A DNA stretch of 64,000 bases, taken from positions 2,759,001 through 2,823,000 of the forward strand of contig NZ_CP152050.1 of assembly GCF_038632915.1 (NCBI RefSeq). Reading direction: 5' to 3'. A program made the position numbers and the translations under genes. Below are positions 57,967 to 60,775 of the stretch, in pieces. Positions within the stretch are counted from its first letter, which is position 1. Each line of letters starts with the position of its first letter. The notes beneath the pieces are model-generated. The model was not told the origin of the DNA. It saw only the letters and a program-made list of their open reading frames with translations, and did not search any database. The DNA is from Paenisporosarcina sp. FSL H8-0542. GTDB lineage: Bacteria; Bacillota; Bacilli; Bacillales_A; Planococcaceae.

Positions 57967-58508
57967 TTTCCCATTCCTTTCTTAATAATAATTACCAATT
58001 ATTAAACTTTTTTAATTCTATAACAGATTTCAATACAATGATATGTAAACATCACTTCTATATTCCAACCCTCAATTGTGATTAAAATCTCTTCCAATAT
58101 GGGCCATTTGAGTAAATGCTACTTTTTAGCTTGATGCTTTTATGTCATGCAAGTTGCTCTAACGCTCTCACTCCTTATATCGGAAAAATACGTAAACGAA
58201 CAACTTTCATATGGTAGTTAATAGGAATTAAGAACAAGCTTTTTTTATGTGAAAATGATTTTTCACTAAAACTTTAATGACCATTTTTAATCTCCTTTTT
58301 ACTGTTTCGACTTTTAAATACAAAGAAAAATAGGTTATCGACAGAAGATTACAAAACCTCTTATGTACTAATAACTTTTTATGACTTAAATTAAGGTTGT
58401 AGGAAAAACGAATCAATGAAAAATGAATCGTTTTATTTTTTGTAAATAGAATAGATATTTATATCTAATTTATTAGTAATAAATGTAAGAGTTTTCATTT
58501 TGGGTATA
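57967..58508. other. AT-rich gap without recognised gene
   Basis: 542 bp. A minus-strand 62-codon frame at 58228-58416 has low-complexity composition and no ribosome binding site; I do not accept it. No hairpin or repeat family member is seen. Confidence 0.4.
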
Positions 58509-58524
58509 AAGTGAAACTTCACTT
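58509..58524. promoter_or_regulatory. Operator-like palindrome upstream of the NWY cluster
   Basis: AAGTGAA-AC-TTCACTT, two 7-bp arms with a 2-bp spacer, directly before an AT-rich TACTATAAATTAT that could be a -10 region, and 46 bp before the leader ORF. Confidence 0.45.
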
Positions 58525-58569
58525 TTACTATAAATTATTCTGGTCTATTGGCCCCAAGGGAGAGGTAGA

Positions 58570-58602
58570 ATGAATCAACTTTTCAATTCAGCTTATTCGT
58601 AA
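58570..58602 (+). CDS. Ten-residue leader peptide ORF
   Basis: MNQLFNSAYS, stop. AAGGGAGAGG lies 5 bases before the ATG, as strong as the ribosome binding sites of the real genes. An inverted pair TCCAATTG (58626-58633) / CAATTGGA (58664-58671) lies between this ORF and the first structural gene, next to its ribosome binding site. This is the layout of a translational attenuator, but it could be chance. Confidence 0.35.
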   Translation: MNQLFNSAYS

Positions 58603-58685: not shown

Positions 58686-59120
58686 TTGAAAAAGATTTTT
58701 GGAATTATTATTGCATCCTCTGTGCTACTTGGTGCAGGAACCATGTATGCAAAAACCGATTCTGCAGCCAACCTTTCTAATTGGTATGAGCATTCATTTC
58801 AAAATGAAAGCATGAAATTAGGGGTGGAAACAGGTGCTGGACTCTGGAGAACGTTTTCGAACGTTAAAATCTTTGTAAGCGAAGCCAAACAATCTTTTGA
58901 TACCTCGCTTGCAAGCTTCACGGCAAAACGTGTTAGTGAAGCAACAACTGAAATTGAACAATACCAAATCGATACAGAAAATCGCTTGGAACAAACAGTT
59001 TCAGAATTAAAAGATGAAAACCTCAAAGTGTATTCAAAACAAGCGAATATTAATGAGGATATCGAAGAAGACATCGAACAAAGCGTAGAAGAAATTTTAG
59101 AAGAAGTATTAAGTGAGTAG
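58686..59120 (+). CDS. Exported NWY-motif protein 1, coiled-coil, unknown
   Basis: 144 residues from a TTG with GGGAGAGGAA upstream. Signal peptide KKIFGIIIASSVLLGAG ending near YAK, then the motif SAANLSNWYEHSF (Asn-Trp-Tyr at 32-34) shared with the next two genes, then a long charged helix (VSEATTEIEQYQIDTENRLE) and a very acidic tail. First gene of a cluster of three related exported proteins. No known domain. Secreted rather than lipid-anchored, as no lipobox is visible. Confidence 0.75.
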   Translation: MKKIFGIIIASSVLLGAGTMYAKTDSAANLSNWYEHSFQNESMKLGVETGAGLWRTFSNVKIFVSEAKQSFDTSLASFTAKRVSEATTEIEQYQIDTENRLEQTVSELKDENLKVYSKQANINEDIEEDIEQSVEEILEEVLSE

Positions 59121-59186
59121 CATTCAAATGGATCTTGCAAAATGCTTGAATTCATTCAAAAAACCAACCACAAAGGGGACATTCAA

Positions 59187-59954
59187 ATGTTAAAAACAAT
59201 CAAAGGTAAAGTAATCGCAGGAACAGTATCAGTAGTATTATTATCAAGCGCTGGAGCAGCATTTGCTAATTCGGATGCTGGAGCAAAATTGCAAAATTGG
59301 TATGCTGGTCAGTTTGGTTTAGCTACTTCAAACATCGTAAATGATGTGGAAGATAATGTGAGTGGAAAAGTTAATGGTTGGGCTAGTGAATATGAAGGCT
59401 TAAAAACAGCAGCTGGAACAAGTATTGTAGCTGATGGAACTAGTGCAACTAATAAAGCAAGTGATAATATCGATGCGAAAACTCAAGAACACATCGCTTC
59501 TATTGATGCAAAACAAGCACAAATTGAAAGATATATGGATGGTCAGTTTGCAACACTTAAATTTGCGGCAAATGGATTAATCAATGAAGCTGGAAGAGGA
59601 GCTTTAGCATATGCAAATTCTGATTTAACTTCTTTCACTGGAGATAAAGGTGTTACTGCACGTGCTAACTTGACTACAGCATTAGAAGCTGATACGGCTT
59701 CAGCTGTTGCTGAATTAGAAAAAGCAATTGCTGACGCAAAAGGAGAACTTCAAACTCAATTAGATACAAAAGAAGCAGCAACTACAGAAGCGATTATAGC
59801 TGCAATTGATGCTAAGATTGTTGAACTTCGTGGCACCATCACTGCTAAACGTGATGCATTAGTTGCTGCTCAAAAATTACTTATTGACGCAAAAGCACTT
59901 GAAATGGAAAATGCTGCAAAAGATGCATTACAAGCTGTTGTTAACGGCATTTAA
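59187..59954 (+). CDS. Exported NWY-motif protein 2, Ala-rich helical, unknown
   Basis: 255 residues from the ATG at 59187, with AAAGGGG upstream. Signal peptide (KGKVIAGTVSVVLLSSAGAA, cleaved near AFA-N), then the motif SDAGAKLQNWYAGQFG (NWY at 37-39). The mature protein is almost all Ala/Lys/Glu/Thr amphipathic helix (AVAELEKAIADAKGELQTQL, IDAKIVELRGTITAKRDALV), suggesting a long coiled-coil or filament-forming protein. No Cys. A hairpin after it may reduce transcription of the third gene. Confidence 0.8.
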   Translation: MLKTIKGKVIAGTVSVVLLSSAGAAFANSDAGAKLQNWYAGQFGLATSNIVNDVEDNVSGKVNGWASEYEGLKTAAGTSIVADGTSATNKASDNIDAKTQEHIASIDAKQAQIERYMDGQFATLKFAANGLINEAGRGALAYANSDLTSFTGDKGVTARANLTTALEADTASAVAELEKAIADAKGELQTQLDTKEAATTEAIIAAIDAKIVELRGTITAKRDALVAAQKLLIDAKALEMENAAKDALQAVVNGI

Positions 59955-59970
59955 TTAGTAATTTAATACT

Positions 59971-60003
59971 CAATAAGGACCTCGTAGTTTGGGGTCCTTA
60001 TTG
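59971..60003 (+). terminator. Hairpin between NWY genes 2 and 3
   Basis: CAATAAGGACCTC pairs with GGGGTCCTTATTG (a small mismatch) around TAGTTT, followed by TTG. Only 20 bp before the ATG of gene 3, so it may act as partial terminator/processing site. Confidence 0.7.
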
Positions 60004-60023
60004 TTGTAACTGGAGGTAACGAA

Positions 60024-60734
60024 ATGCTGAGCAGACTTGAGAAATATAAAAAGATTCAAAAGAGAAAAAAGATAATTTTGTTGGTAGCCGTAGTAGTGCT
60101 AACTCTCGGGATTGGCAGTGGAGTGAAAACTACGTTCGCAGATGCAGATGTAAGCACGCTATTGATTAATTGGTTTAAAAATAAAGAATCCCAATCCCTT
60201 AATGAAATTGATAAAGCGATTACGGATGAAAAAACAATACTTCTAGCTCAATTGAAAGTAGAATTGAAAAACGAAATGGATTCTGCTAAACAAGAACTAG
60301 ATGCATTTACGGAAAAACAGAAGTCTGATCGTATTGCTTCACTCCGTCAGTATGCAAATGAGTTAATTGAGAATTTGAATGTTGATACAACTGAACAACA
60401 AGATAAAATTACTGCACAAATCAATTCAATCATGAACGAAGCAATCGCTCAAATGGACCAAGCGGTTATTATTGTTCCTGAAACGATTCCTGAAGTCCCT
60501 CCTGTCTCAGAAGGAGAAAATTCATCGAAACCAAATGAAAATGAACAGGAACCAGCAACCGAACCTGTTCAAATTCCTGCACCTTCAACACCGGTTCCTG
60601 AACCCGCTCCTATTTCTGACCCTTTGCCAAACCCGGAATCAGATTCCACATCTGCTAATGGTGTTGATAACGTTCAAGCTAATCGCAATCCAAGTACTGA
60701 AGACGAATTAGAAAACTCTGTTGAAAACGACTAA
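60024..60734 (+). CDS. Exported NWY-motif protein 3 with Pro-rich tail
   Basis: 236 residues. Basic n-region (KYKKIQKRKK), hydrophobic helix (IILLVAVVVLTLGIGSGV), then the motif VSTLLINWFKNKES (NWF at 49-51), a coiled-coil (KAITDEKTILLAQLKVELKN, LDAFTEKQKSDRIASLRQYA) and a Pro/Glu-rich C-terminus of about 80 residues (VPETIPEVPPVSEGE, PAPSTPVPEPAPISDPLP) typical of wall-spanning regions, but without LPxTG. GGAGGT lies before the ATG. Probably the membrane- or wall-associated member of the trio. Confidence 0.75.
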   Translation: MLSRLEKYKKIQKRKKIILLVAVVVLTLGIGSGVKTTFADADVSTLLINWFKNKESQSLNEIDKAITDEKTILLAQLKVELKNEMDSAKQELDAFTEKQKSDRIASLRQYANELIENLNVDTTEQQDKITAQINSIMNEAIAQMDQAVIIVPETIPEVPPVSEGENSSKPNENEQEPATEPVQIPAPSTPVPEPAPISDPLPNPESDSTSANGVDNVQANRNPSTEDELENSVEND

Positions 60735-60748
60735 CGCTATATCACATG

Positions 60749-60775
60749 AGACTCTCTTTGGAGAGTCTTTTCTTT
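60749..60775 (+). terminator. Terminator of the NWY cluster
   Basis: Perfect 8-bp stem AGACTCTC/GAGAGTCT, loop TTTG, tail TTTCTTTTT. Confidence 0.88.

Follow-up and report, generated by a model that had tools for sequence, protein, structure and literature searches.

The extracellular protein assemblies closest in plan to the locus described here are built by TapA-SipW-TasA and by FadA. TapA-SipW-TasA of Bacillus subtilis (TasA/CalY/CapP of B. cereus) is a small operon for major and minor exported subunits; TapA and TasA share an N-terminal segment that becomes a donor strand (PMC9674648). FadA of Fusobacterium nucleatum is an exported helical hairpin that forms filaments (PMC13432900). The subject of this report is a set of three genes, P1, P2, and P3, in a 64,000-nucleotide stretch of the genome of Paenisporosarcina sp. 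FSL H8-0542 (NZ_CP152050.1, positions 2,759,001 to 2,823,000), the whole of which is referred to as the window. P1, P2, and P3 encode paralogous, predicted exported and helical proteins that carry one motif at the predicted mature N-terminus; the set is real and conserved, and no library that was searched describes it.

The P1-P2-P3 locus is like TapA-SipW-TasA in being a small operon, apparently for one major and two minor exported subunits, and in having a mature N-terminal segment common to its products; relatives, though not the window, add a dedicated signal peptidase in many cases, SinR-type dyads in some genera, and linkage to M73/SipW genes in six loci. It differs from TasA in that its products are predicted to be all-helical instead of jellyroll proteins, lack M73 similarity, and are three mutually homologous proteins; the peptidase linked to the trio is a type I enzyme with a strong PF10502 match, unlike the SipW of one relative's locus (L073), which falls below that cut-off. 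The resemblance is one of logic and not of homology. P3 is predicted to form a helical hairpin, which recalls FadA, but P1, P2, and P3 have no sequence match to FadA, which comes from a different phylum and is one protein in two processing states as opposed to three paralogues. The long amphipathic helices, whose period is close to 11/3, also recall apolipoproteins of the A1/A4/E type, and a P2 paralogue of Gottfriedia reaches E 0.0069 with PF01442, below the cut-off; no match lies above threshold, the constant N-terminal motif is absent in apolipoproteins, and no lipid role is known for the trio.

Three Paralogues with a Common Predicted Mature N-Terminus

The P1, P2, and P3 open reading frames (ORFs) are arranged head to tail on the plus strand (Table 1). 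They are real and under purifying selection, with ratios of nonsynonymous to synonymous substitution (dN/dS) of 0.21-0.38 for the three genes in comparison with congeneric species. An alternative in-frame start for P2 at 59142 would give a protein of 270 amino acids. A first-pass annotation of the window had drawn the same three ORFs and motifs, with coordinates and sequences that were reproduced exactly, and had described the composition of the products correctly: P1 is acidic (net charge -15), P2 is Ala-rich (47 of the 228 mature residues), and mature P3 contains 17 Pro and has a Pro-rich tail.

The same annotation held that the proteins differ outside the motif, which understates their relationship. 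Profile-profile comparison with hhalign joins P1 to P2 (E 3.8e-8), P2 to P3 (1.7e-6), and P1 to P3 (7.6e-8); the alignments begin within the signal peptide with the motif Trp in register, and the mutual homology covers the first ~100 residues. The P2 profile also matches P1 and P3 genes in single-sequence searches, with E down to ~1e-14. Coiled-coil composition can raise such scores, but it cannot explain the N-terminal register, and on these sequence comparisons P1, P2, and P3 are paralogues, homologous beyond the motif.

The motif is located at the predicted mature N-terminus of all three proteins. The motif Trp is the eleventh residue after a signal-peptidase site of the A-X-A type in 55 of 57 P2, 52 of 53 P3, and 39 of 55 P1 proteins; five of the other P1 proteins are missed solely because their site is of the window's type, MYA, in which the Met at -3 falls outside the search pattern. 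Cleavage as predicted would leave the window's proteins beginning with KTDSAANLSNWY after MYA in P1, NSDAGAKLQNWY after AFA in P2, and DADVSTLLINWF after TFA in P3, a shared mature helix start that can be written x-x-D-A/V-x-x-x-L-x-N-W-Y/F.

The first-pass annotation had named absence of the trio from other genomes as grounds for rejecting its proposed cluster of three exported coiled-coil proteins; the trio was found, as an ordered operon, in many Bacilli. The order P1-P2-P3 is kept in Paenisporosarcina, Sporosarcina, Psychrobacillus, Bhargavaea, Neobacillus, and other Bacilli, and in Paenisporosarcina sp. HGH0030, the closest relative with a name, P2 is 99% identical. The P2 profile matches 45 of 261 Planococcaceae genomes, in 6 of 19 genera, although two of these are partial or weak matches within long ORFs that are perhaps not genuine P2; the order-level search took in the same 261 genomes. 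Even sampling of the class (399 genomes) added P2 in four further families, including genomes that look Brevibacillus-like (f22) and Paenibacillus-like (f3). Named outliers with P2 are Neobacillus jeddahensis, Bacillus sp. FJAT-27445, two Paucisalibacillus, and Gottfriedia solisilvae. Among eleven aligned homologues, down to 36% identity, P2 has 255 residues and no internal gap. Copy number is less constant, and the set stoichiometry suggested earlier is not supported: P2 is present twice in Psychrobacillus and in others, and in one genome P3 and the signal peptidase gene occur without P1 and P2.

A Conserved Hairpin Follows P2

The inter-gene hairpin of the first-pass annotation is present in the gap between P2 and P3, and its conservation fits unequal dosage of the two products. 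The 70 bases after P2 form a stable structure in the majority of 50 loci (mean folding energy -20.6 kcal/mol, mean z -2.8), and those after P1 form none (mean folding energy -5.4 kcal/mol, mean z +0.4; 46 loci). Stem pairs of the P2 hairpin change compensatorily, from A-T to G-C and from A-T to T-A or C-G; Neobacillus-type and Brevibacillus-like loci have unrelated stems at the same position after P2. Pairs were recounted on separately extracted hairpins because the MAFFT alignment misplaced several rows; as extraction favors pairing and makes the shuffle control unfair, weight is placed on the types of compensatory pair and on the comparison of P1, P2, and P3. The hairpin is real and positionally conserved in most loci. 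Its tail is weakly U-rich, so that partial termination and 3' stabilization are both possible. Neither the hairpin nor the leader upstream of P1 has a match in Rfam.

After P3, a terminator-like structure is present in most loci where the operon ends, and there is usually none before a signal peptidase gene, which fits co-transcription of P3 with the peptidase.

Gene Neighborhood and Predicted Regulation in Relatives

A type I signal peptidase gene (PF10502, E 3.6e-30) lies directly 3' of P3 in 17 of 52 loci, from several genera and families; of the 545 genes that lie further away in these loci, not one gave a signal peptidase match. Response regulators of the NarL type are concentrated around the trio (20 of 271 genes within three positions as against 6 of 545 further out). 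Six Sporosarcina-group loci have an M73-SipW-M73-sortase cluster (TasA/SipW/camelysin/sortase) within 20 kilobases, at varying relative positions. All of these counts come from related loci and do not represent independent events.

Promoter regions of Neobacillus, FJAT-27445, Gottfriedia, and two further genomes (G605 and G581) contain 16-base-pair dyads of the GTTCxxTATAAxGAAC type, in five Bacillaceae-type loci that were chosen after their sequences had been viewed. These dyads match the inverted-repeat target of SinR (PMC3163267). SinR/SinI-domain proteins are present in G605 and G581 and absent from three Brevibacillus-like genomes that lack such dyads; the Gottfriedia trio is flanked by two SinR genes. 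Six Planococcaceae genomes have no SinR/SinI-domain protein except for one sub-threshold match. A GTTCTYT element in Planococcaceae gave scattered single matches, which were taken as chance.

Trio promoters of the Sporosarcina group (including the regions upstream of L074, L140, and L150) carry repeats such as CTAAAGTAGAA, AAAGTAGAC, and GTACAAAAGTGTACC, candidate sites of the adjacent NarL-type regulator.

Predicted Structure and Family Searches

The AlphaFold2 model of P2, from an alignment of 22 sequences, is all-helical, with helices at residues 30-147, 153-193, and 200-254. P3 is predicted to form a helical hairpin (43-116 and 123-146) with a predicted local distance difference test score (pLDDT) of ~95, followed by a disordered Pro/Glu-rich tail (152-236). 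Hydropathy in P1, P2, and P3 has a period of 3.68-3.72 residues, closer to an 11-residue than to a 7-residue repeat.

The first-pass annotation had called P3 anchored and its tail wall-spanning. This role is not supported because P3 has no sorting signal (none of the P1 and P3 C-termini inspected contains LPXTG, which also counts against membership among wall-anchored, M-protein-like surface proteins), retains no membrane segment after the signal peptide, and has lost the tail in Neobacillus and Bacillus sp. FJAT-27445.

Profile searches placed the three proteins in no described family, in agreement with the earlier statement that none matches a known one. Nothing exceeds the cut-off in Pfam, NCBIfam, PHROGs, or PADLOC; weak matches to V-ATPase G, DLP_helical, PspA, and ZorA are coiled-coil noise. 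No description of the family was found in the open-licence literature. Against PDB sequence profiles, the best match of P2 is apoA-IV (E 0.02, not significant) and P3 has none. Searches with tblastn of plasmid and phage collections gave no match to P2, which on this evidence is probably not a plasmid or phage gene.

Particular sequence memberships were rejected as follows. M73/TasA: PF12389 matches none of the three. FadA: the family is absent from Pfam matches up to E 1, and in the PDB fold search the P3 hairpin (H43-116/H123-146) met a FadA chain (3etx) at E 6.2 only. LeoA-type dynamin-like GTPases: PF18709 gives 20 bits against a cut-off of 25.5 and NCBIfam 17.5 against 325, and there is no GTPase domain. 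Tripartite helical pore-formers of the ClyA/Hbl/Nhe type: neither Pfam nor NCBIfam gives a match up to E 1, and mean hydropathy over 19 residues, which peaks at 0.45, 1.17, and 0.96 in the mature proteins, reveals no membrane-inserting segment. One ClyA pore chain ranks 50th in the VIA list (Z 8.7, root mean square deviation 8.2, 122 residues aligned), where helical bundles score equally by chance.

A Proposed Extracellular Assembly and Its Rivals

The best reading of the operon, as the first-pass annotation had suggested, is that it encodes a surface or extracellular assembly. We give a probability of roughly 0.55 to an all-helical fiber, sheath, or matrix in which P2 is the major subunit and docking proceeds via the shared N-terminus. 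P1, P2, and P3 would be exported by Sec and cut by type I signal peptidase, exposing the same mature N-terminal helix start. P2, as a folded-back rod of three long helices, would be the bulk subunit, kept in excess over P3 by the hairpin; P1 and P3, which share the N-terminal module of P2, may be minor subunits that act as nucleator, cap, linker, or cross-linker. By analogy with the donor strand of TapA/TasA, the processed N-terminus could be the common docking element that binds subunits to one another. Where many relatives have a dedicated signal peptidase in the operon, the window's genome would have to rely on one of its three signal peptidases acting in trans. The model rests on homology, gene order, motif register, conservation of the hairpin, and gene neighborhood, all of which the sequences show, and on predicted helical folds; secretion, polymerization, stoichiometry, and a role in a matrix are inferred.

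Several observations weigh against such an assembly. The P2 model is of moderate quality (mean pLDDT 71; predicted template modeling score, pTM, 0.51), and Foldseek and VIA-align found no significant PDB fold match and none to a known fiber, a failure that rules out no listed family. No signal peptidase or matrix genes lie beside the window's trio, and the whole genome lacks an M73/TasA protein and SinR/SinI. One relative (G609) has a SinI-domain protein and a trio without the SinR-type dyad. The link to a matrix rests on the relatives because the window's own genome lacks M73, SinR, and a trio-adjacent signal peptidase; in that genome the P1-P2-P3 system stands alone.

P2 might instead form short FadA-like filaments or a coat of helical hairpins that binds a partner cell or surface, the P3 tail or C-terminal domains presenting the binding part of what would be a surface adhesin. 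FadA itself shows that an exported helical hairpin can make filaments (PMC13432900), and C-terminal additions vary in P3 (a domain of ~100 amino acids in Psychrobacillus) and in one Gottfriedia P2 paralogue. There is no Pfam adhesin match, however, and a scaffold agrees better with the large conserved length of P2 and with the links to matrix regulators, so an adhesin is unlikely.

A shade less probable again is that the proteins do not polymerize and serve as accessories of the cell envelope, in a periplasm-like space or as wall-associated spacers, or as a set of proteins against stress or desiccation. Such a role would suit the low-complexity tails, acidic and Pro-rich, the Ala-rich amphipathic helices (period ~3.7 residues), and the weak apolipoprotein-type matches, but the strict shared N-terminal motif and the constant length of P2 suggest a specific assembly and not a generic protectant.

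Most hosts of the trio are endospore formers, as expected if the proteins formed an appendage, a coat layer, or another structure specific to sporulation. That explanation is highly improbable: Bhargavaea, which is reported not to form spores, keeps the full trio, the conserved neighborhood contains no sporulation genes, and the proteins have Sec signal peptides and a dedicated signal peptidase of the vegetative type.

Least credible is a secreted soluble multi-part effector, since, although known tripartite helical pore-formers are likewise three homologous secreted helical proteins in one operon and a ClyA chain appears in the VIA list, that match is within helical-bundle noise, no mature protein has a hydrophobic membrane-inserting segment or a family match, and matrix genes would better account for the association with signal peptidase, NarL, and SinR.

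Other Features of the Locus and Variants in Relatives

Table 1. Features of the P1-P2-P3 locus in window coordinates.
Feature	Position	Strand	Description
Inverted repeat AAAGTGAAACTTCACTTT	58508..58525	+	In the leader 5' of P1; candidate operator or hairpin of the leader
Possible short upstream ORF MNQLFNSAYS	58570..58602	+	Strong Shine-Dalgarno sequence
P1	58686..59120	+	144 amino acids, TTG start; acidic, helical, predicted exported; predicted cleavage between MYA and KTDS; W33 is mature +11
P1 motif SAANLSNWYEHSF	58761..58799	+	At predicted mature N-terminus
P2	59187..59954	+	255 amino acids, Ala-rich, helical, predicted exported; predicted cleavage between AFA and NSDA; W38 is mature +11
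P2 motif AGAKLQNWYAGQF	59277..59315	+	W38 invariant in 22 aligned homologues
Hairpin CAATAAGGACCTC-gtagttt-GGGGTCCTTATTG	59971..60003	+	P2-P3 gap; proposed partial terminator or 3' stabilizer
P3	60024..60734	+	236 amino acids, predicted exported; predicted cleavage between TFA and DADV; W50 is mature +11
P3 motif VSTLLINWFKNKES	60150..60191	+	W50 invariant in 20 aligned homologues
Intrinsic-terminator-like hairpin	60748..60769	+	Ends operon; z -3.5 after P3 in the window

The leader 5' of P1 (58508-58602) is conserved in Paenisporosarcina as a co-varying inverted repeat and a candidate MN-x-x-FNS ORF. The repeat AAAGTGAAACTTCACTTT is present in the window and its sister, and the arms co-vary in Paenisporosarcina L055 (AAAGCACATTGTGCTTT); counterparts of the upstream ORF read MNLLFNSAYS (L056) and MNRVFNSG (L055).

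Relatives also contain variants of the three proteins. The second P2 paralogue of Gottfriedia solisilvae (L089:8861-9919) has ~95 extra C-terminal residues that resemble a separate domain and have no Pfam match. P3 of Psychrobacillus (L058:11190-12143 and others) continues after the Pro-rich stretch into a conserved C-terminal domain of ~100 residues (SDILMNSQ..ILNSIL..H..F..IQYKT..EMSRVAP). P1-like proteins occur without P2 or P3 in other genera of the family (L064:8976-9404, L065, L066, and L067), with the motif changed to DWN or SWN; two of these genes are near genes for large secreted proteins and peptidoglycan-hydrolase-like genes. One Paenisporosarcina species has a fourth P1-like gene, lacking the Trp motif, 3' of P3 (L055:7292-7798), and Paenisporosarcina G007 has a lone P1-like protein with a Pro-rich tail (L068:1388-1945) near SipW-like, camelysin-like, and DUF5305 genes and a NarL-type regulator.

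Implications

A broader proposal, which we hold only tentatively and at less than even odds, is that the trio represents a new class of Gram-positive extracellular fiber, all-helical and served by its own signal peptidase, in which three paralogues exchange N-terminal helices generated by signal peptidase in place of a donor strand, and which replaces or complements TasA across Bacilli. If the reading as a matrix or fiber is right, many Bacilli beyond B. subtilis, including genomes without TasA, would carry a second, unrelated protein matrix or surface fiber: an all-helical counterpart of TasA that has, in many hosts, a dedicated signal peptidase and whose rule of assembly, Trp at mature position 11, can be tested directly.
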